The notes below the pieces were generated by a model. The model was given only the letters and a program-made list of their open reading frames with translations. It did no database searches and was not told where the DNA came from. Source: a virus. From it: a stretch of 49,429 nucleotides of DNA. A program made the translations under genes and the position numbers. The stretch lies in the IMG/VR virus record IMGVR_UViG_3300032897_000008, positions 1 through 49,429 of that record, one strand, 5' to 3'. Position 1 is the stretch's first letter. Each line of letters begins with the position of its first letter. Positions 2,926-39,814 of this stretch are shown piece after piece.

Positions 2926-3786
2926 TTGCCCGAGGATGCCCGAAAGGTCTTCGTCCCTGCCCCGGGAAATGCGTTCGTGTCGGGCGATTTCTCCAACCTT
3001 GAGCTTCGCGTCATGGCCTATGACTTCAAGGATGAAGTGCTTCAGAAGATGTTCGACGAAGGGAAGAACATTCACGACGAGAACACTAAAGCCATGTTCA
3101 AGATCACCCCTTCCCATCCCGGGTGGAAGCACATAAGGAAAGCCGCCAAGATCGCAGTGTTCGGTAGAAGCTTCGGAGGCGGGGTAAGAGGGATTTTCGA
3201 GCGGGTGAGTGCCAAGGTACCTGAGTTCAATTTCACGATGGCGATGTTTCGGGATGCTGACCGCCGTTACTTCGACGCCCACCCGGCCCTTGACAAAGGA
3301 TTCAAGGAAGCATCTTCCACAGCGCGACTCACTCGTGTCTGTACAACTGCGACGGGACGAAAGCGCTTCTTCCTCGGTGCTCCAGATGAGGTTGAGCGTG
3401 AAGGCATCAATACCCGTATTCAATCCGTCGCGGGGGACATCGAACACGAGTCCTTGATTGCTCTCTATGAGGAATGCGAGCGCCACCCGGGGTGGCTCCT
3501 CCTCTGGCCGATTCACGACTCGAACACGATCGAGTGTCCGATCTCCGACATCCCGCTCTGCGCCTCCACCATGAAGGCAATCATGGAGAAACCGCGCCAT
3601 CTCTGGGGAAAGACCGTGGTGTTCCCCGCCGATGTATCAGTGTCTACGACTTCCTGGGGAGAATTGAAAGCCTATGAAGAGTGGCTCAAGGACCAAAGCA
3701 CCTCCAGCGCACGCAAGCCCTCACTCCCACAACGGAAGCGAAAGCCTCACTCCCCCAAAGCCCGAGTACCTTCCCGTCGCGTATGA
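2926..3786 (+). CDS. C-terminal (palm/fingers) part of split family A DNA polymerase
   Basis: The 286-aa frame holds the polymerase active site: motif A VSGDFSNLELRV (D21, E26), motif B R71-x3-K75-x3-F79-x3-F83 and motif C PIHDSN (H197, D198). Homology to family A enzymes begins a few codons before the possible TTG start, with NAQNLP in the same frame at 2914-2931. There is no clear ribosome binding site at that TTG, so translation may restart after the HNH stop (2912-2914) or the protein may be joined by RNA splicing. E. coli Y766 corresponds to F83, and the E after the motif C Asp is a serine. The basic tail after about residue 255 overlaps the next gene by 113 bases. Confidence 0.88.
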   Translation: MPEDARKVFVPAPGNAFVSGDFSNLELRVMAYDFKDEVLQKMFDEGKNIHDENTKAMFKITPSHPGWKHIRKAAKIAVFGRSFGGGVRGIFERVSAKVPEFNFTMAMFRDADRRYFDAHPALDKGFKEASSTARLTRVCTTATGRKRFFLGAPDEVEREGINTRIQSVAGDIEHESLIALYEECERHPGWLLLWPIHDSNTIECPISDIPLCASTMKAIMEKPRHLWGKTVVFPADVSVSTTSWGELKAYEEWLKDQSTSSARKPSLPQRKRKPHSPKARVPSRRV

Positions 3787-6691: not shown

Positions 6692-9600
6692 GGTCTGGTC
6701 GGACGGAGAATCCGCCTGCGGTGAGAAACGCGGCGTAGGGCTGTCCTGCCTCGATCTGCTTGATGACCTCGACGGCCTGAGTGACCTGGGAGCCCATGGG
6801 AGCGAGTGCGGTCACTTCCTTCATCGCCGTCTGAAGCTCCCTCTTCCCCGGCTGGCTCGATGAGAGATTCACCATGGCTTGCCAAAGCGGCCCACCCCGC
6901 AGTGTCACCACCCGCCACGGCATGAGGTTTCCTCCCGAAAGTCCCGCCATGCGATTGGCTCCGTAGAACGCGGCGGTGTTCTTCGCGAAAGTAGCAAGTG
7001 CCGCCGTACGGTCGAAGAAACCTCCCGACCCGGCAAGCCTCGTGAGCGCCGCCATGTAGTGGGTGGGAACGACGGTGAGCTGACCGAACATCTTTCCGAG
7101 GATGCCGGTGTTAAGCGCCCTTCCCTGGTCCTCGGGGCGGAAGCCGAAGGCGATCTGGTCGGTCATGTTCTGCGCGTAGGCATGCTTCGCTCCCTCGTAG
7201 TCGCCTTGAGAGAGAAGCGTCTCCACTTGATCGAGGGCTCCCGGATCAAGCCGGAAGGCCTTGATCGCTTTCGCTTTCTGGGTCCAGTCCCCGACCTTCC
7301 CTCGATCGAACCACGCCTGGAGGTTTCGATCGAAAAGCCACGAGGCGGAGTCGTAGACCCCGGCCCGCCCGAGGATATGCCCGTTCTGGACGAAGTACCC
7401 CGAGGCTTTCCCCAGGCGGTTGAAGAGACTCGCGAAGGCGCTTCCGCTTCCCGCTGCCTCGTTGAACCCGTACATCGGGACCTTGCCCGTGAACACGCCC
7501 TTCTGGAAGAGATCCTTGAGATGGTCCAGCCCTCCATCGGAAGCCGCCTTGAACCCCCGGTTCATCGCTTCGGTCCCGAGGAAGCCCGACCCGAGGAGGT
7601 AGTTGTGTTCAAGAATGGTGAGCGCACTGGAGGGTCGGAATCCGTACGCACCCATTCCCGCCGCCGTCTGGAGGTAGGAGAAGATGTTTGCTTGGGGTCC
7701 CGGTCCGTCCTTTCCCAGCGCTTTCAAGACCTCCAAGGCTTCACTGTGAGTCCCGTTGAGTGCCTCGTCGATGTAGTGCTTCCCGAGGAGTTGAACGTGC
7801 TTCGGGACATCAGGCTGGGAAAGGCGCTCTGCGAAATCCTTGAAGTTCTCTACCGCGTACGCCCAGCGGTTTGCCATCTGCGAGTACCCGATGAACTTCG
7901 AGATCGCGTTCTGGTCTTTAAGAATCCCGTCCACGTCAGCCACGCGCTCGTACTGAGACGCATACCCGAGGTCCTTCGGAATCCTCCCTCCATAGACCCG
8001 GTTGATGAGCTGTCGCATTCCGTCGGGACCCGAAAGTTCCATGTCTTGGTAGGCTTTGGGGTTCGCCTCTTTCCAATCGTGGACTTTCTTCGCGTAGTCC
8101 ACAAGCATGATATCGGGGTCCTGACCGGTCCGTGTGTAGGAGGCGTTGTAGAGCTGCCGAAGCCTTGAGGCTGCATCCTGGATTTGTGCCCGCTTCGGCG
8201 AGCCCTCGGTGTAGCCCAAGTCCTCAAGCGTCCGCTGTCGGTCCTCTTCCCCGAGGGACTGCATCACCTTGTCCACGGCCATCCAGTCTTTGTCTGAGAG
8301 GTTGTAGAGTCGCTCGATGGAAAAGGCCTTTTGAGCGTCCACGTAGGTCTGGTTGCTCGCGGCCTTGATCCCCTCACCGACTTTCGAGAACGTCCTCCCC
8401 AAGCCCTTGATCCCGTACTCCACCTCAGCTCGGGCGATCGAGGTTCTTGCCGGTGCCATCCAATCAGAGATCACCGACCTGATATGAGAGATCTCTTGGC
8501 CGAGCTTTGACCGACCCGCGTACTTCCCAATTGGGATCACATCCGAGGCGAGCTTCGGTGAGTCGGCGCTGTTCTTAAGCGTCACCCCCGCGTCGAACTG
8601 CCCACCGGGTGCCCACCTCAGGTCGGGGGTCTTCGCAAGGATCTTCCCTACCTCATCCATGGAGTGAACGGTGTAGGTTCCCGTCGCATCCGATAGGACA
8701 TACCCGCGCTTGGGGTCGTAGGTGAAGGCAAAGCCTCTCTCGTTTGCGATCCGTGAGGCGTTGTCGTATTCCTTGTACTTGCCGTTGAGGTACTCGTGGG
8801 CTTCCGCCGAGGAGGCAAACCGTTCCCGTATTCCCCACGCAGGAATCTCCACGGTGTACGCCCCGTCGTGATCGGAAGTGAGCCTGCCATCTCCCGTGGA
8901 AGCAACCGTTTTCCTTCCTTCCTCCGCCGCCACGTCCATGAACTGCGAGGCGAACTTGTAGACATCCCGAAGGCTCCCGCTCACCCCATCGCCCGAGTAC
9001 TGAAAGCGCGAACCCTCGGGAAGGATCTCGATGTTTCGAGGCCCAAAGCGACCGTCGAGAAGCTTCGGCCGGTACTTGGCTTCCCACATCGCCTGGGCCG
9101 CGTTGGCCCCAGAGCCCAGCACCTTCCCGTCCGTGTCGAGGATCGAGTACTGTCCGCCTTCCTGGCGGAGCGACATTCCTTCGCTCTCAAGGCTTGCGCG
9201 AAGATGGGAGGGCGTCGTCGAGCGAAGCAGAAATGCATCGGTCACCTCATCGAGTGATCCCTGAAACGGCGGGTAGCCTTTCATCGAAAGCGCGTAGTTG
9301 TCGGTGCCGAACTTGGCGATGTTTCCGGTTCCTTCCCGCGCCACCGCGTTCATGAACCACTCGGCTCGCTCCTGAGGCCCCAAGCCCTCCGGTGCCCGGT
9401 ACATCGTCGGCCGCTCTGGAGTCATGGCCGATGCCCCGCCAGCGGTGGGAAGCTCTTCTGGAGCGGTGTATTCCCTCGACCACTTGTTCACGAACTCGGT
9501 GACGTGTTTGATTTGCTCCCTCGGGTAGAGTGCCGTCACCGACCCGTCAGCGTGCTCGATGGCGTCGTAGCCTCCGTCCCGAAGCTTCCAGAAGGCGAGG

Positions 9601-11471
9601 TCCTCGCGCGTCCCCTCCGCGCCCTTCTTGAGCGCCTGGTCGGCCCACGAGAGCGAGGCCTGCCACACCCCGTCGGGTGCGGCCTTCCCGTAGACGATCG
9701 CCCCGTTGTAGTCCCCCGAGGTGACGGTCTGAAGGTTCGTCGGACGGTCGGTGGGAAAGAGCGCTCCCTGCTTCTCGATGTTGGAAAGGCCTTCTCTCGG
9801 AACGTCCACGGAGATCCGAGCGACTTTCATCCCGTTAGCCTGAAGCTGCCCCACCTCGCCGTAGGAGAGCATCGGGCCTTCGGAAAGACCCTTCGCCGCG
9901 CCCTCGGGCCGAAGCCTCTCCATGTTTCCTTCTATGATCGTGAGGGAGTCCCGTATCGCCCGGTCATGAGGGAAAGCATCCTGGAGGGCGTTCAGATGCA
10001 TGTCGTGGGATTGGACTTGGCGAAGGTCCTCCTTGCCGCCTTTCTCTTCCCACGCGGCCTGCCACTTGGCTCCCTGCGCCCGCTCCTGTTCGATGGCATC
10101 CGCCCACTGTCCGTGCGATACCATCTCGGCCTCAGGAAGGGTGAGATGCTCACCAAGAAGCTCTCCACCCCGTCCGAGACTCGTCCGCATCCGCCACGTG
10201 TTAGGCCCGTCGGATACCATCGAAACGCCGAGAGGCCTCTGGCTGTCGGAAAGAATGAAGGTATTCGCGACCTTCATCGAGGCCACCGGGTTGTCCATGA
10301 GGGCCATGGGATTCTCGCGCGAGTAGTCCAGTGCCTCCGAGTAGTTCTGAGCCCAATCCTTTGCCGTTGCCCCGAGCTGGCTCCGTGCGGCGGGGTCCAC
10401 GTTCCCCTTGAAAAACTGGTCCTGGAGCCTCGCGGCCTCAGGAGTGTACTCCCCCCCTGCGGTCTTCTCGAACATCTCCGCCTTTGGAAGCGCTGCTCCC
10501 CCTTTTCCCAAAACCGAGCTTTTGAAGGTTCGAAGGATTCGTCCTACTCCTTCGGCCGCTCCCTGTCCCAGCATCCCGAAGGCCGCATCCTGCGCAGCCC
10601 ACTGGCCCCAAAGAAGCCCGATGCTCTTCACCGTCTCCACGATCCCGTGGGAGGTATCCGTTGCCCCCTCGATTGGGGCCACCCCGGGTCGGGCCGCATT
10701 CACCGCTTCTGCCGCCTCGCCCCGGATCACCCCGAGGGTGCCGGTCACCGCCGCGCGTGCTCCCACCTTCGCAAGAGCAGAGGCGCCTTCGGCCACGGGA
10801 GCCGCCTCTCCTACGCCCTTCATCGCAAGGAGGTCCGTCCCGTATCCCAGCACCGACCCAAGGACCTGTGTGGGTGTCTGCCCTCCGATGAGAGGAATCC
10901 CTGTGGTGATAGGTCCAATCTTGACCGTTGAGGGAAGCGCTGTCTCGTACTTCCTCTGAAGGTATGCGGCGAGCTTCACTCCATCCTTGTCCCCCGCGAT
11001 GGCCCGGGCCATGAGTTCGTCAGGGGTTGCGTTCTGAAGATCCGTCCGGGTCTCCGCGCCTCCAGAGAAGAACTTCCCCACGTCCGTCACCGCACCTGAA
11101 AGCGCCCGCCCCGCGTTCACCACTCCACGCGTGAGGAGTCCCGTCGAGCCCATCTGCGTGTCCATGTCGTAGAGAAACCGAAGGGTCTTCCCCTGTCCTG
11201 TGGGGCTCTCAAGAACCTGTCGGAGGTTCTCGTAGCGGGTGTCGGCGAAGGCGGGCGGATAGAGGTCCTTCACGCGCTTCAGCGCTGCGATCTTCATGTC
11301 ATCCGGGGCCTGTTGCCACGCAGGGCTTGATGCCGCCTTGGAGGCAAAGAGTTGCATCCGCGCCCGCTGCTGGTCCTCGTAGGAGAGGTCCCGAAACTTC
11401 GGGTCCATCATCTGGACGGCGAACGGATTCGGTGCCTGCCGTCCCGGCTGCTGCGCGTAGGGGTCGGACAT
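6678..11471 (-). CDS. Very large internal virion (ejection) protein, 1597 aa
   Basis: The largest gene and the last of the late operon. The product is 1597 aa, with Ala/Gly-rich hydrophobic stretches (~160-290: repeated VGARAAVTGTLG-like segments, and ~1330-1520) and long amphipathic helices between them. It matches no enzyme I can name; the composition is like the large polyvalent/internal core proteins of podoviruses, which are ejected with the DNA and cross the envelope. It stands where T7 places gp16, after two smaller proteins in gp14- and gp15-like positions, but I see no transglycosylase motif. The 3' end overlaps the DNA methyltransferase by 14 bp. Confidence 0.85.
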   Translation of the reverse strand: MSDPYAQQPGRQAPNPFAVQMMDPKFRDLSYEDQQRARMQLFASKAASSPAWQQAPDDMKIAALKRVKDLYPPAFADTRYENLRQVLESPTGQGKTLRFLYDMDTQMGSTGLLTRGVVNAGRALSGAVTDVGKFFSGGAETRTDLQNATPDELMARAIAGDKDGVKLAAYLQRKYETALPSTVKIGPITTGIPLIGGQTPTQVLGSVLGYGTDLLAMKGVGEAAPVAEGASALAKVGARAAVTGTLGVIRGEAAEAVNAARPGVAPIEGATDTSHGIVETVKSIGLLWGQWAAQDAAFGMLGQGAAEGVGRILRTFKSSVLGKGGAALPKAEMFEKTAGGEYTPEAARLQDQFFKGNVDPAARSQLGATAKDWAQNYSEALDYSRENPMALMDNPVASMKVANTFILSDSQRPLGVSMVSDGPNTWRMRTSLGRGGELLGEHLTLPEAEMVSHGQWADAIEQERAQGAKWQAAWEEKGGKEDLRQVQSHDMHLNALQDAFPHDRAIRDSLTIIEGNMERLRPEGAAKGLSEGPMLSYGEVGQLQANGMKVARISVDVPREGLSNIEKQGALFPTDRPTNLQTVTSGDYNGAIVYGKAAPDGVWQASLSWADQALKKGAEGTREDLAFWKLRDGGYDAIEHADGSVTALYPREQIKHVTEFVNKWSREYTAPEELPTAGGASAMTPERPTMYRAPEGLGPQERAEWFMNAVAREGTGNIAKFGTDNYALSMKGYPPFQGSLDEVTDAFLLRSTTPSHLRASLESEGMSLRQEGGQYSILDTDGKVLGSGANAAQAMWEAKYRPKLLDGRFGPRNIEILPEGSRFQYSGDGVSGSLRDVYKFASQFMDVAAEEGRKTVASTGDGRLTSDHDGAYTVEIPAWGIRERFASSAEAHEYLNGKYKEYDNASRIANERGFAFTYDPKRGYVLSDATGTYTVHSMDEVGKILAKTPDLRWAPGGQFDAGVTLKNSADSPKLASDVIPIGKYAGRSKLGQEISHIRSVISDWMAPARTSIARAEVEYGIKGLGRTFSKVGEGIKAASNQTYVDAQKAFSIERLYNLSDKDWMAVDKVMQSLGEEDRQRTLEDLGYTEGSPKRAQIQDAASRLRQLYNASYTRTGQDPDIMLVDYAKKVHDWKEANPKAYQDMELSGPDGMRQLINRVYGGRIPKDLGYASQYERVADVDGILKDQNAISKFIGYSQMANRWAYAVENFKDFAERLSQPDVPKHVQLLGKHYIDEALNGTHSEALEVLKALGKDGPGPQANIFSYLQTAAGMGAYGFRPSSALTILEHNYLLGSGFLGTEAMNRGFKAASDGGLDHLKDLFQKGVFTGKVPMYGFNEAAGSGSAFASLFNRLGKASGYFVQNGHILGRAGVYDSASWLFDRNLQAWFDRGKVGDWTQKAKAIKAFRLDPGALDQVETLLSQGDYEGAKHAYAQNMTDQIAFGFRPEDQGRALNTGILGKMFGQLTVVPTHYMAALTRLAGSGGFFDRTAALATFAKNTAAFYGANRMAGLSGGNLMPWRVVTLRGGPLWQAMVNLSSSQPGKRELQTAMKEVTALAPMGSQVTQAVEVIKQIEAGQPYAAFLTAGGFSVRPDLKGK

Positions 11472-21231: not shown

Positions 21232-21741
21232 CTACCTCTTCACGAGCAAGTATAGGGTCTCGGCGGCCACTGCCACAAGCGCCCCGATCCCGACGTACTT
21301 CCACACGTCTCTCTGGAGTACAAGCGCCTTGGCATCCAGTCCCGCCTTTCCTATTGCCTTCTCCTGCTCAAGGATGCGAGCCGAGAGCGCGTCCGATATT
21401 GCCTGAGACTGATTGAACAATTCCGAGAGCGTCGTGAGTGTCTCCTGCGATTTCCCCGACGAAGCCTCGGCTGTCGTCAATTCTTCCTTCAAGGTCTCTT
21501 CGAGCTTTTTCGCTTCGTCCAAGGCTCGCTGCAAGTCCTGCGTTTTCGCTTCTGAGGCTGTCAACAAGTCCGCTGCTTTGTCCAAGCTTGCCTTCCAGTT
21601 CTGAAGCGTATCCCTTGAGATCGGTATTGGCGTCCCGGATGGACTTGAGGTCGGCAGAGAGCTTTGCGACCGCGCCCGTTCCAATCCACAGGCCAACAGC
21701 AGCAGCGCACACAGCGCCACAAGCAAAGCCGATCGCAGCAT
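21232..21741 (-). CDS. Lipoprotein with C-terminal membrane segment (o-/u-spanin-like)
   Basis: The ATG at 21741 gives a 169-aa product beginning MLRSALLVALCALLLLACGL: a lipoprotein signal with lipobox LLAC and lipidation Cys at 18. Then comes a polar linker, a coiled coil (~50-135, Asp/Glu/Lys/Leu-rich) and a C-terminal hydrophobic helix YVGIGALVAVAAETLYLL. Lipid anchor plus terminal helix is the arrangement of unimolecular spanins, which link outer and inner membranes and fuse them at lysis. It overlaps the i-spanin-like gene out of frame for 374 bp, as Rz1 lies in Rz. A GTG at 21753 would add four residues. The C-terminal helix could also make it a tail membrane protein. Confidence 0.72.
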   Translation of the reverse strand: MLRSALLVALCALLLLACGLERARSQSSLPTSSPSGTPIPISRDTLQNWKASLDKAADLLTASEAKTQDLQRALDEAKKLEETLKEELTTAEASSGKSQETLTTLSELFNQSQAISDALSARILEQEKAIGKAGLDAKALVLQRDVWKYVGIGALVAVAAETLYLLVKR

Positions 21742-21760
21742 ACTTCCATCCACCCTTCAT
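21368..21760 (-). CDS. i-spanin-like membrane protein, 130 aa
   Basis: The ATG at 21760 overlaps the stop of the preceding 59-aa gene (ATGA) and gives a 130-aa product: one N-terminal membrane helix (residues ~6-27, YAAIGFACGAVCAAAVGLWIG) followed by a coiled coil (~32-100) with Leu/Ala heptads and a helical end. This is the topology of Rz-type inner-membrane spanins. Nearly all of its coding sequence is also read in another frame by the lipoprotein gene. The longer frame up to 21853 is a shadow of the 59-aa gene. Confidence 0.72.
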   Translation of the reverse strand: MKGGWKYAAIGFACGAVCAAAVGLWIGTGAVAKLSADLKSIRDANTDLKGYASELEGKLGQSSGLVDSLRSENAGLAASLGRSEKARRDLEGRIDDSRGFVGEIAGDTHDALGIVQSVSGNIGRALGSHP

Positions 21761-21936
21761 CGCTTCATCCAGTCGAAGGTCGTCACCCCAAGAAGCACCC
21801 CTCCCAATCCCATCACTCCCAGCGCGATGTTCCCGTCCTTTCCCAGGTACCATCCTACCATCGCGGCAATGATGAGAACCACCCCAAAGACCCTTCGTGA
21901 GGAGGTGCTTCCGTCGGGATTCTGAAAGAGGTCCAT
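21757..21936 (-). CDS. Small two-helix membrane protein, holin candidate (59 aa)
   Basis: The frame 21936-21757 begins MDLFQNPDGSTSSRR and then has two hydrophobic helices (VFGVVLIIAAMVGWYLG and ALGVMGLGGVLLGVTTF) with a charged end (DWMKR). Size, topology and place after a peptidase gene and before spanin-like genes fit a class II holin. Its stop overlaps the spanin start, and GAGGG lies just before the ATG. Too short for the usual open-frame lists. Confidence 0.68.
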   Translation of the reverse strand: MDLFQNPDGSTSSRRVFGVVLIIAAMVGWYLGKDGNIALGVMGLGGVLLGVTTFDWMKR

Positions 21937-21940
21937 CCCT

Positions 21941-22036
21941 CTACCAGGGGAACTTCACGTACTTCGACAGGAACCACCCGAGAAACATCGCGCCTACGGC
22001 GATCACCAGACCCACGATCATCCCGAATATGAACAT
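21941..22036 (-). CDS. Tiny membrane protein, 31 aa
   Basis: ATG 22036 to TAG 21941, preceded by a perfect AAGGAGG (22043-22049). It encodes a single hydrophobic helix (MFIFGMIVGLVIAVGAMFLG) followed by the short tail WFLSKYVKFPW. In the lysis cassette it could be a pinholin or holin modulator. The strong ribosome binding site and four-base gap to the next gene's start argue that it is real. Confidence 0.65.
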   Translation of the reverse strand: MFIFGMIVGLVIAVGAMFLGWFLSKYVKFPW

Positions 22037-22048
22037 CGTTTTCCTCCT

Positions 22049-22471
22049 TCAGGAAACGGTAATCACGACCTTCTCTACGAAGGTCGCGTACTCCCTCATT
22101 ATATCAGGTCGGTTCATCGAGTCCCACTCGATGTGGGTCTTCCCATCCCCCACCACGAAGTGATCTTCCTTCACGTTGGAAAGGTAGAACTTCAGGATCT
22201 CTCTCTCATTCGATTGGCAGGTGTAGCCTTCCAGACTCTTGAACTTGAGCCTCATCTTCGGCGACACGCTCCATGCCACCTTGTCCCAATCGAGTATGGT
22301 GCATTCCCCGTCCACGAAACCCACGCCCTTCAAGGCCTCGAACATCGAGTTCACATCCGAGGGCTGGAAGAGCGTATCGGGTGCGATGTAGCACGTCGAG
22401 AGAAGCGCACACCCGAAGGTCTGCACCACCGGGTCAAGCCTCGTGTCGGTCTGAAGCCATCCTCTTATCAT
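22049..22471 (-). CDS. C39-like cysteine peptidase, candidate endolysin
   Basis: A 140-aa protein with a papain/C39-like set of residues: Q18-x3-C22 (QTFGCALLS) near the N-terminus, a HFVVGDG segment (~H107) and a following WDSM Asp, the order Gln-Cys-His-Asp. The length is that of a single catalytic domain. It is the first gene of a cluster continuing with two tiny membrane proteins and spanin-like genes, which supports a role in cleaving peptidoglycan peptides. DUF261-type proteins share this pattern. No other endolysin is recognisable in the window. Confidence 0.66.
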   Translation of the reverse strand: MIRGWLQTDTRLDPVVQTFGCALLSTCYIAPDTLFQPSDVNSMFEALKGVGFVDGECTILDWDKVAWSVSPKMRLKFKSLEGYTCQSNEREILKFYLSNVKEDHFVVGDGKTHIEWDSMNRPDIMREYATFVEKVVITVS

Positions 22472-36744: not shown

Positions 36745-37010
36745 CCACCGCCGTCTATCGCCTCCCTCTCTCCTCCACACTCTCGCGCGATTCCCTTATC
36801 TGTCATCTTTCCTCGATCACTCCCCAGGACGCAATCGACCGCCTCTCACGTGCCGGCGTTCTCGCAATAGAGGGCCCAGAAGAGAACTCTATTCTCCTCT
36901 TAGGCTTTCATCGCGAGATCCGAAAGCTGCTTGCCTTCTGGCGTAACCCTCGCCTCTACTCCGACGACATCTCTCTCACCATAGCCAAACTAAGGAGGCT
37001 TTCCGCATGA
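36741..37010 (+). CDS. Small early protein, 89 aa
   Basis: ATG 36741 with GGGAGG upstream. 89 aa, helical with a hydrophobic ILLLGF stretch, probably a small regulatory protein (ISLTIAKLRRLSA at the end). Function unknown. Confidence 0.72.
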   Translation: MTTAVYRLPLSSTLSRDSLICHLSSITPQDAIDRLSRAGVLAIEGPEENSILLLGFHREIRKLLAFWRNPRLYSDDISLTIAKLRRLSA

Positions 37011-37657
37011 ACACCAAGTCACGACAGATCTCAAAGAAGAAACCGTCCTCGGTTTCTCCCGTCTCCGCCGAAGCCCGCGAGCTTCAGGCCCTCAAGTCCC
37101 GCGCACTCTCTCTCATCGAGTCCTCGAAATCGATCCAAGTGAAGGACACCCCAAGCTTCGAGCGCGCCGGCGACCTCGTGAAAGACGCCGTAGGGCTCCG
37201 AAAGGATCTCCGGGGGACTGCCTTCTACAAGGCCCTTGTCGAGGCCAAAGCCGACCTGAAAACGAAAGACCAGCTCTACAAGAGCGTCGAGAAGCTCGTC
37301 AAAGACGCCGAGGATCTCGTCCGAGACGCCCTCTCCCGCTACGCCGCCGAGCAGCGCTGGAAGCAGGAAGCCGCCATCGAACGCGCCATGGAGAAGGGAA
37401 AGGACGAGAAGGCCGCATCTATCGCCGCCACGCCCTTCGTCCCACCCGTCCAGGGCCTTTCCTTCACCGAACACTGGCATGCGGAGGTGGAAAGCCTCCA
37501 CGCGCTCGTGAAGGCCGCTGCAAGCGATCCGAACCTTCTCGCCTATCTGGATGCCAACATGGTCCCTTTGAACGCTCTGGCACGCTCCCAGAAGGACTCC
37601 ATGGCAATCCCCGGCGTCAAAGCCGTGAAGGAAACCTCCTCCTCGGTGAGGGCATAA
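37007..37657 (+). CDS. Helical, Lys-rich protein, 216 aa
   Basis: A 216-aa protein: a basic N-terminus, a long coiled coil (~25-150) and a C-terminal part (TEHWHAEVESLHALVKAAAS ... VPLNALARSQKDSMAIPGVK) found in many phage proteins of unknown role near replication genes. ATGA overlap with the previous gene. Could act as a DNA-binding or scaffold-like early factor. Confidence 0.75.
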   Translation: MNTKSRQISKKKPSSVSPVSAEARELQALKSRALSLIESSKSIQVKDTPSFERAGDLVKDAVGLRKDLRGTAFYKALVEAKADLKTKDQLYKSVEKLVKDAEDLVRDALSRYAAEQRWKQEAAIERAMEKGKDEKAASIAATPFVPPVQGLSFTEHWHAEVESLHALVKAAASDPNLLAYLDANMVPLNALARSQKDSMAIPGVKAVKETSSSVRA

Positions 37658-37668
37658 AAGACACTATG

Positions 37669-37709
37669 TGACACCTGCTTGACACCGTGGGGCCATCCTG
37701 TGGTATCTT
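37669..37709 (+). promoter_or_regulatory. Promoter with direct repeats before the 73-aa gene
   Basis: TTGACA (37679-37684) and TATCTT (37704-37709) with 19 bases between, longer than ideal. TGACACC occurs twice, at 37669 and 37680, exactly 11 bases apart and overlapping the -35 box, which suggests a protein binding to one face of the helix. Confidence 0.55.
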
Positions 37710-37816
37710 CATCTTGCTTTCCGAACGCATCCGGGGTGGTCGAGAGGAAAGTCTTACTACGGCGTTGCCGCTTACAGACACCTTTCGACCCGCCCCACTC
37801 TTTCCGGGAGGAAATC

Positions 37817-38038
37817 ATGACGATCACTGAAGAGAAAATCCTTGAAGACTTGAAGTCCAAAGGAATCCGTGTCTATGGAAAGCGGATCGTCAGCTCGTTC
37901 AAGACGACAGACAGCGCCGAGCGCATGGCCAGGATCAACTTCCTCGTCGAGAAGTGCGGCTACACTCTCCACGACGAGAAGGGTTTCCCCAAGAAGCCCG
38001 AGAAGAAGCCTGAAGCCGCGCCGTCCGTAGCAGTGTGA
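37817..38038 (+). CDS. Small early protein, 73 aa
   Basis: ATG after GGGAGGAAATC. 73 aa, with an N-terminal helix-rich half (EKILEDLKSKGIRVYGKRIV, RMARINFLVEKCGYTLHDEK) and a Lys/Pro/Glu tail. Possibly a small nucleic-acid or protein-binding factor. It is preceded by a leader of about 100 bases that can form a GGGGTGGTCGA/TCGACCCGCCCC stem. Followed by the structured region. Confidence 0.72.
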   Translation: MTITEEKILEDLKSKGIRVYGKRIVSSFKTTDSAERMARINFLVEKCGYTLHDEKGFPKKPEKKPEAAPSVAV

Positions 38039-38044
38039 TTCCTT

Positions 38045-38112
38045 ACCCTCCACGGACAAACACGGTAGCCCGGAACGCACCTTGGCCTTTGGCGAGGCAG
38101 ACCGTGGAGGGT
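38045..38112 (+). terminator. Long-range inverted repeat with T-rich end
   Basis: ACCCTCCACGG (38045-38055) and CCGTGGAGGGT (38102-38112) pair over 11 bases, enclosing about 46 bases with an inner hairpin, and are followed by TTTCTT. It starts seven bases after the stop of the 73-aa gene and looks like a structured terminator or the 5' part of a non-coding RNA. Confidence 0.68.
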
Positions 38113-38118
38113 TTTCTT

Positions 38119-38231
38119 GCCCCCGACCGCAGCCCGACAAGCCATCGGGTGGGCGCGACAGATGGCCAACAGGTCTGAACGACCTGACACGAGGCGTCGT
38201 GATGAGTCACGGTCCGACTCCGTGCGGGGGC
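38119..38231 (+). ncRNA. tRNA-like structured RNA element
   Basis: GCCCCCG (38119-38125) pairs perfectly with CGGGGGC (38225-38231), a 7-bp closing stem like a tRNA acceptor. Inside, CACGG-TCCGACT-CCGTG (38208-38224) forms a 5-bp/7-base arm joined directly to the acceptor strand as in a T arm; CAGGT-CTGAACG-ACCTG (38170-38186) resembles an anticodon arm with T33 and GAA (Phe); CACGA-GGCG-TCGTG (38188-38201) is a long variable-arm-like stem; CCCGA...TCGGG (38133-38149) replaces the D arm but is set in a region too long (44 nt). The T-loop lacks the second U and position 37 is C, so a working tRNA is doubtful. Confidence 0.55.
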
Positions 38232-38235
38232 TAAA

Positions 38236-38250
38236 AGCGGCGTTGCCGCT
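38236..38250 (+). repeat. Short hairpin AGCGGC/GCCGCT
   Basis: AGCGGC-GTT-GCCGCT directly after the tRNA-like fold. The core GGCGTTGCCGCT also occurs at 37757-37768 in the leader of the previous gene, hinting at a shared RNA element. Confidence 0.6.
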
Positions 38251-38252
38251 CA

Positions 38253-38331
38253 GAGGCTCGGGCGCCGGGGCGTCAAACAACGATTCTCACGGCGTATCGT
38301 TTCATCCTGGTGACCTGAGCCTCGTTTTTTT
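38253..38331 (+). terminator. Terminator-like hairpin just before a ribosome binding site (attenuator candidate)
   Basis: GAGGCTCGGG (38253-38262) pairs with CCTGAGCCTC (38314-38323) over ten positions with one G-U pair, then G and seven T's. It encloses about 50 bases with an inner hairpin (ACGAT...ATCGT). The AAAGGAG of the next gene starts three bases after the T run, so termination or refolding here would control that gene. Confidence 0.7.
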
Positions 38332-38345
38332 CAAAGGAGATCCTT

Positions 38346-38564
38346 GTGGCAAAACCAAAATTCCCCAAAGAGATTTTCGTGTACTTGGACAAGCGAGGAG
38401 ACGACTACGACATAGAAGCAAGACAAACCCTCAAAGAGGCAGCATACGGTCTGGGCGACGGTGAGACAATGCAAATTGCCCGATATGTCTTGGCAAACGG
38501 AGAGCCGTCTTCCTACACTGCAAAGCTCATCACGTTTTCGAAGCCTTCTACTCGGATAAAGTAG
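38346..38564 (+). CDS. Small early protein, 72 aa
   Basis: GTG start after AAAGGAGATCCTT. The 72-aa product (MAKPKFPKEIFVYLDKRGDD; QTLKEAAYGLGDGETMQIAR) has a beta-strand, loop, helix look. It is AT-richer than neighbours and preceded by an apparent attenuator. Function unknown. Confidence 0.7.
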   Translation: MAKPKFPKEIFVYLDKRGDDYDIEARQTLKEAAYGLGDGETMQIARYVLANGEPSSYTAKLITFSKPSTRIK

Positions 38565-38575
38565 GGAACGATCCC

Positions 38576-39814
38576 TTGAACACTACCCCCGAGCAGAAAG
38601 CCCTGATCGATTCCTTCAACTCTAACGCGATGACCACAAATGAGAATGTCATCGAGCGCTACGTCTCCCGATGGTCTCGAAACATCGGCTCGCTCATCCG
38701 CTCAGGGCTCGACCTCCGAGGCGCCAAGCCCCTCTGCGAGAAGCTTTCGACCTTCAGGGATTTCCTCGTCCTCGGCTCGGGTCCGTCCATTCAATCCATC
38801 TGTTCCGACCTTCCCGACCGTGGAGCGCCCGCAATCCTCTGCGGCCCCACGGCCTACGGTGCCCTTCGCGCGATCGACGTCCATCCCACGGTGATCCTCG
38901 TGGCCGATCCTTCTCCCACCCAGTACCGCCACATGGTCGAGAACCTTTTCGACTCCCCGTGTGATTTCCTTCTCCCCGTCACCTGCGACCCTTCGTGGTA
39001 CGCGAAAGAGTCCATCATTCCCAAGTCCCGGCTTTTCTTCTACCTTCCGTTCTTCTCCTGGCTCGGGGACACCCAGATCGCTTTCAACGCGATGCTTCAG
39101 GACCTCTTTCCCGAGATCTCCCAGAGCTGGTTTCTCCAAGCGGGCTCCGTCGCCAACCTTGCCGTCCACTTCGCCGACAAGGCCTGCGGGATGGACCCCT
39201 CCAAGCGCATCCACATCGCCATCGAGAACTCGTGGCCCGAGGGCGGACCCTACCGCGCCCCGCTGCGCTTCCCACTCTCTCACTACTCCGAGGGCCTTCG
39301 CTCGTGGTTTCACTCCCCCCAGAACCAGATGCTCACCGATAGTCTCTCTGGAACTCAGACCGACATGACCTCACTCAACTATGCGGTGAGTCTCTTCTAC
39401 TCCATCCACTGTCTCATCTACTTCGAGGGCGAGGAGGCCAGGAAGGCCCGCGAGCGCCGCTACCATCTCGTCCACGAGGCCTCTTCCCTCTACTTCTGGG
39501 CCTCTCCCGCATCCTTTCGCCCGCTTTTCTACGAGGCCCCCTATCGCTACCTCGACTCGCGGATCGACACCTCGGTCGAGCACTGGACCTACCAGCTCGT
39601 GCTTGACCTCATCTCCCTCACTGAGCGCCTCATGACCGAGCTTCGAGACGCTGCGGTCACTGACGCCCTCCGCATCTGGAAGGAAGGTCATGCTTCCTCG
39701 GTCGAGATCCCGGTCCCCAACGACACCGAGGCTCAAAAGGTCGAGAAGGCCATCCACGACATCGACCCTTCCGTCAAGCTCATCTTCAAGAAACCGGAGG
39801 TGGAGAAGGCATGA
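38576..39814 (+). CDS. MptE-like/DUF115 family protein
   Basis: A 412-aa protein with an MptE-like (DUF115) domain: FLVLGSGPSIQSI (63-75) as a Rossmann-type glycine loop, ILCGPTAYGALRAIDVHPTV (~86-106) and GSVANLAVHFADKACGMD. Members are known in sugar/flagellin-associated glycosylation loci and phages, as well as in pterin synthesis, so the substrate here is open. TTG start preceded by GTAGGGAAC; ATG at 38630 is an alternative. It ends in ATGA overlap. With the methyltransferase-like gene and GT2 gene downstream it may form a glycan-modifying set. Confidence 0.75.
   Translation: MNTTPEQKALIDSFNSNAMTTNENVIERYVSRWSRNIGSLIRSGLDLRGAKPLCEKLSTFRDFLVLGSGPSIQSICSDLPDRGAPAILCGPTAYGALRAIDVHPTVILVADPSPTQYRHMVENLFDSPCDFLLPVTCDPSWYAKESIIPKSRLFFYLPFFSWLGDTQIAFNAMLQDLFPEISQSWFLQAGSVANLAVHFADKACGMDPSKRIHIAIENSWPEGGPYRAPLRFPLSHYSEGLRSWFHSPQNQMLTDSLSGTQTDMTSLNYAVSLFYSIHCLIYFEGEEARKARERRYHLVHEASSLYFWASPASFRPLFYEAPYRYLDSRIDTSVEHWTYQLVLDLISLTERLMTELRDAAVTDALRIWKEGHASSVEIPVPNDTEAQKVEKAIHDIDPSVKLIFKKPEVEKA

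Follow-up and report, generated by a model that had tools for sequence, protein, structure and literature searches.

Two membrane-protein genes, here called A and B, overlap out of frame almost completely in the viral contig IMGVR_UViG_3300032897_000008, all 49,429 nucleotides of which were analysed (hereafter the window). The overlap is not accidental: the pair is real, conserved and unannotated. The two proteins probably contribute to host-cell lysis by a variant mechanism, most members of the family having no lipid anchor on either of them. In the window, B lies in the +1 frame relative to A, the overlap makes up 95% of A, and B extends 136 bp beyond the stop of A (Table 1). The start of A is in turn embedded in an ATGA overlap with the stop of a 59-aa gene just upstream. 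The original prediction had placed two spanin-like genes in a 374-bp out-of-frame overlap at 21368-21741, and these coordinates are exact on the minus strand, running precisely from the ATG of B to the stop of A. The protein shapes that it described are likewise those of the window pair, namely an N-terminal hydrophobic helix in A, a lipobox match and a C-terminal hydrophobic segment in B, and long helices in both.

Table 1. Features of the A/B region in the window
Feature	Position	Strand	Description
Gene A	21368..21760	minus	ATG, 130 aa; type II, with a membrane helix at the N-terminus followed by one long helix
Gene B	21232..21741	minus	ATG, 169 aa; begins with a signal peptide and ends in a membrane helix, with a long helical region in between
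Dual-coding overlap A/B	21368..21741	minus	374 bp
Exchanged segment	21228..21942	minus	Absent from the nearest relative, L002, which has a GTA_holin_3TM gene instead
59-aa protein	21757..21936	minus	Holin-like, with two hydrophobic helices; belongs to the exchanged module
31-aa peptide ORF	21941..22036	minus	Single membrane helix; conserved in L002; lies immediately outside the exchange
DUF261 (PF03196) protein	22049..22471	minus	In place of the M15, M23 or amidase_2 of relatives

Neither a tblastn search of 50,697 phage records with window A and B nor a peptide-pattern search of IMG/VR with B produced a match. The first related IMG/VR contigs were reached through the neighbour genes of A and B, and a scan of these contigs revealed the same overlapping pair in L011, L008, L009, L012 and L014. 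A profile of B led to L015 and later to L036, and a search based on three aligned B proteins led to L032 (the same contig as L042); all three carry A. Recovery also worked in the opposite direction, as a search with A proteins led to L039, L043, L044 and L046, each of which has B in the +1 frame. The pair is thus present in at least 13 distinct environmental phage contigs, the window and 12 others from IMG/VR. Throughout these 13, B is +1 to A and the overlap spans 363-495 bp, or 95-100% of A. The two starts are coupled as well: B starts 2 nt before the GTG of A in six members, 5 nt before it in L011 and L009, and 8 nt before it in L036. In most embedded o-spanins the start lies at 0.4-0.5 of the length of the i-spanin (Kongari et al., PMC6139136), whereas B starts at 0.05 of A or upstream of A altogether, bearing out the earlier view that this overlap is more extreme than in the usual spanin pairs. 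Alignments of the portal protein and of B found no relatives in GTDB genomes, and therefore no host was assigned.

Could one of the two frames be open merely by chance? We redrew the codons of one frame and checked the other for stops. For the window alone, the B frame stayed open in 11% of draws, which leaves some room for chance, and the A frame in 0.4%. The relatives refute this explanation. None of the 13 environmental members has a stop in either frame, which for several of them, taken singly, has a probability below 1e-3 (the members are related, and these values must not be multiplied), and the third frame contains 3-13 stops in every member. Coupled with the reciprocal recovery and the conservation of B's own non-overlapping tail, this makes a chance frame exceedingly improbable. 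The proposal that both overlapping membrane/coiled-coil genes are functional was open to refutation by a frame broken in relatives, and both frames turned out to be intact in every member.

The close pair L042/L044 is instructive in the same respect. Their overlaps differ at 33 of 396 sites and the non-overlapping tails of B at 21 of 103 (Fisher p=0.001), the slower change of the overlap being expected if both frames constrain it. Changes inside the overlap avoid neither frame more than the other, again as expected under double constraint. We also ran a codon-null similarity test, in which both frames scored high, but the third frame too rose above the null. Since the third frame is largely determined once two frames are constrained, and since the members share descent, this test was dropped as proof in favour of openness and reciprocal recovery. 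As a separate observation, the L042/L044 pair is 90% identical and the nearby DNA matches only in scattered patches, a picture of mosaic exchange around the pair.

The genomic setting points to lysis. A small membrane protein is encoded directly upstream of A/B in every case inspected; these proteins have hydrophobic helices in 12 of 12 cases, Tetrasphaera phage TJE1 (see below) included, and mostly two of them. The gene next upstream encodes Peptidase_M15_4 in L015 (3e-14), Amidase_2 in L032 (1e-20) and M23 in L044 (1e-6), whereas in L039 it encodes a YkuD-like protein (a weak match, E 0.016) and in L011 and L046 a DUF261 protein, as in the window. The lysis-gene setting assumed at the outset is therefore upheld by the small holin-like gene upstream and by cell-wall hydrolases beside it in three relatives. 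The window DUF261 protein is itself a candidate cell-wall hydrolase. It occupies the endolysin position, and conserved C, H and D/N residues, picked out by eye, suggest a papain-like enzyme. The 31-aa single-helix ORF sits between the DUF261 gene and the holin-like gene. Upstream of the lysis genes, L032 (about 3021-3659) and L044 (3369-4067) each have a gene with a lipoprotein-like N-terminus (..FFAC-DTSGG and ..LSC-DLSGG, respectively) and with repeats common to the preceding small gene.

Comparison of close relatives also links the module to lysis. L002 is 87% identical to the window up to 21943 and becomes similar again exactly from 21227; in place of the intervening segment it has a GTA_holin_3TM gene (PF11351, 3e-14) at 2510-2929. 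Likewise, L013 and L014 share 98% identity over 4,962 bp, a stretch that ends with the stop of a 174-aa gene upstream of the module. Beyond that gene, L014 has the small membrane gene followed by A/B, and L013 has GTA_holin_3TM (2e-9) at 9164-9619. Thus, in two independent swaps, the small membrane gene, A and B together correspond to one GTA-type holin gene, and the three form a replaceable lysis module. GTA_holin_3TM occupies the same genomic spot in these close relatives, but it is a single gene for a protein with three membrane helices and has no sequence similarity to A or B.

The swaps bear on two of the alternatives. An envelope function unrelated to lysis, such as superinfection exclusion, could be carried in the lysis region, since membrane proteins of this sort can sit near lysis genes. 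It is an unlikely explanation, given the exchange for a holin gene and the fixed place of the pair after a small membrane protein in very different phages. A better-placed alternative, which ranks next after the spanin-like reading set out below and which we consider possible though distinctly less probable, is a holin system. Here the 59-aa two-helix protein, A and B would together make the cytoplasmic-membrane hole or set its timing, the pair acting as holin accessory or antiholin. Replacement of the whole module by one 3TM holin in two independent pairs of relatives speaks for such a system, but a whole lysis cassette may be swapped even where its parts differ in job. Near-complete out-of-frame overlap is, moreover, a layout known from spanins, and we know of no holin regulator arranged in this way.

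We now turn to the proteins themselves. By hydrophobicity, A has one N-terminal membrane helix, and its AlphaFold2 model (mean pLDDT about 76) consists of a helix spanning residues 5-126; A thus has the N-terminal membrane helix and helical periplasmic domain of an i-spanin, the topology being judged from hydrophobicity. Against Rz-like PHROGs, A members gave single weak matches (E 3e-4 to 4e-3) that may be coiled-coil noise, and window A had no match to Rz-like families below 0.01. A was also considered as a lipoprotein and rejected, as the PROSITE lipobox pattern PS51257 occurs in A of L011, L014 and L046 only and is not conserved; A of L008, L042 and L044 contains no cysteine at all. The N-terminal hydrophobic segment of window B ends in LLLLAC-G, which matches PS51257 at C18, and the protein has a second hydrophobic segment at its C-terminus. 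Its AlphaFold2 model, also with a mean pLDDT of about 76, is all-helical, with helices at 43-94 and 99-168. Protein-family scans of A and B returned only coiled-coil-grade matches, and a Foldseek search of BFVD with the B model gave no match at E<=0.001.

The original prediction described B as u-spanin-like, and on this point the relatives disagree with the window. The lipobox pattern is missing from 12 of the 13 environmental B proteins and, by inspection, from TJE1 B, leaving the window as the only match among 14. In L011, L008, L043 and L046, B has no cysteine in the stretch where a lipobox would have to lie; as A of L008 also lacks cysteine, neither partner in that phage could be a lipoprotein. 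What aligns across the family instead is a run of small residues before Q-S-S or a similar motif (VQA-QTS, AQG-QSS, TLA-QSS, VQA-QSS), and the window reads ARS-QSS at the same site. This resembles a signal peptidase I site, and the motifs, read by eye and not by a trained predictor, suggest cleavage there. With the lipobox confined to the window and the signal peptidase I-like site family-wide, the conserved B is not an outer-membrane lipoprotein, and the window lipobox, if it is used at all, would be an addition specific to its lineage.

A true spanin system in the window, with A as its i-spanin and a lipid-anchored B serving as u-spanin or o-spanin, is improbable. The C18 lipobox match together with the C-terminal membrane helix speaks for such a system, as do the +1 overlapped layout, familiar from P2 lysB/lysC (PMC3556154), and the lack of any other plausible lipoprotein gene in the window that could supply a separate o-spanin. 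The rarity of the lipobox and the alignment of ARS-QSS with the family-wide site speak against it. So do the cysteines: between the membrane anchors, neither A nor B has any in the members, except for C131 in A of L015, so that the periplasmic cysteines for disulfide-linked dimers seen in two-component spanins are missing. Finally, the T1 gp11 family, the best-studied u-spanin family, is mainly beta-structured (PMC6139136), whereas the model of B is helical.

Known systems nevertheless offer partial parallels. The two-component overlapped spanins P2 lysB/lysC and phiCbK gp105/gp106 share with A/B the position of a second gene overlapping the first out of frame in the lysis cassette, the +1 frame, and a first protein that is a type II inner-membrane helix protein, like A. 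They differ in that B as a family has no conserved o-spanin-like lipobox, possesses a C-terminal membrane helix, overlaps 95-100% of A and starts near or before the start of A. The unimolecular spanin T1 gp11 combines a lipobox-like signal with a C-terminal membrane helix, a pattern found in window B only, and B is in addition always paired with A. LysF1b and LysZ of mycobacterial and corynebacterial phages are, by the available part of their description (PMC13056207), single-helix lysis proteins encoded beside lysis genes and outside the lipoprotein spanin scheme; that part describes no out-of-frame overlapping partner, and the likeness to A/B is one of description. LysF1b, a single-helix holin-like partner in a mycobacteriophage lysis cassette, also lends some weight to the holin-system alternative.

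A possible cultured member is Tetrasphaera phage TJE1 (L049, NC_019930.1). Positions 36876-38602 of its genome have no annotated gene and directly follow gp48, which is homologous to the YkuD-like protein of L039 (31%, 7e-13). This stretch encodes a small protein with two helices, as well as two overlapping frames with the shape and register of A and B, the GTG of B lying 5 nt before that of A, a spacing also seen in L009 and L011. Among 682 open frames, each of the two is the top match of its own profile, with weak E values (0.14 for A and 0.01 for B). Judged from sequence, the TJE1 frames are probably homologous to A and B. According to its record, TJE1 infects an actinobacterium whose genus is described as Gram-positive and in which an outer membrane is not expected, a further point for a holin system. 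If both the host and the homology hold, the shared function of A and B cannot be outer-membrane disruption. Integron attC sites are unusual in this host group. TJE1 carries such sites (PMC9892861), which puts the recorded host in doubt.

Taken together, the fixed lysis setting, the near-complete +1 overlap and the opposite membrane topologies point to a lysis complex of two proteins with a new topology, one type II and the other type I. We favour, as about as likely as not, the reading that this complex breaks the envelope in a spanin-like way without a lipid anchor. The overprinted A and B would then act in lysis alongside the small holin-like protein whose gene lies just upstream. A would leave the membrane from its N-terminus and B would return to it at its C-terminus, so that their long helices may pair outside the cytoplasmic membrane. 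Once the cell wall is cut, the A-B complex would help to break what remains of the envelope. Some observations count against this spanin-like complex: if the hosts have an outer membrane, nothing seen in most members reaches it; close relatives have a 3TM holin and do without A/B, so that the envelope-breaking role may not be a required one; and the matches of A to Rz-like PHROGs are weak. Slightly more tentatively, A/B may represent a new class of two-protein lysis machine, a type II and a type I membrane protein doing a spanin-like or envelope-breaking job with no lipid anchor, possibly operating in hosts with one membrane as well as two.

In the literature cited here, spanins are described only with an outer-membrane lipoprotein (PMC6139136). 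In the same survey, no spanin could be recognised in about 13% of the phages infecting Gram-negative hosts, and its authors mention a type I protein anchored at its C-terminus as a spanin topology that may have gone unrecognised (Kongari et al., PMC6139136). The A/B family is a conserved candidate for these unexamined topologies, and TJE1, as a possible cultured member, makes the question testable. The pair also represents a near-complete out-of-frame overlap of two membrane proteins that the annotation of a published genome overlooked. Elsewhere in the window, one ORF (579-2426) matches uracil-DNA glycosylase in its N-terminal part and DNA polymerase A in its C-terminal part, pointing to either a fusion or a split polymerase.
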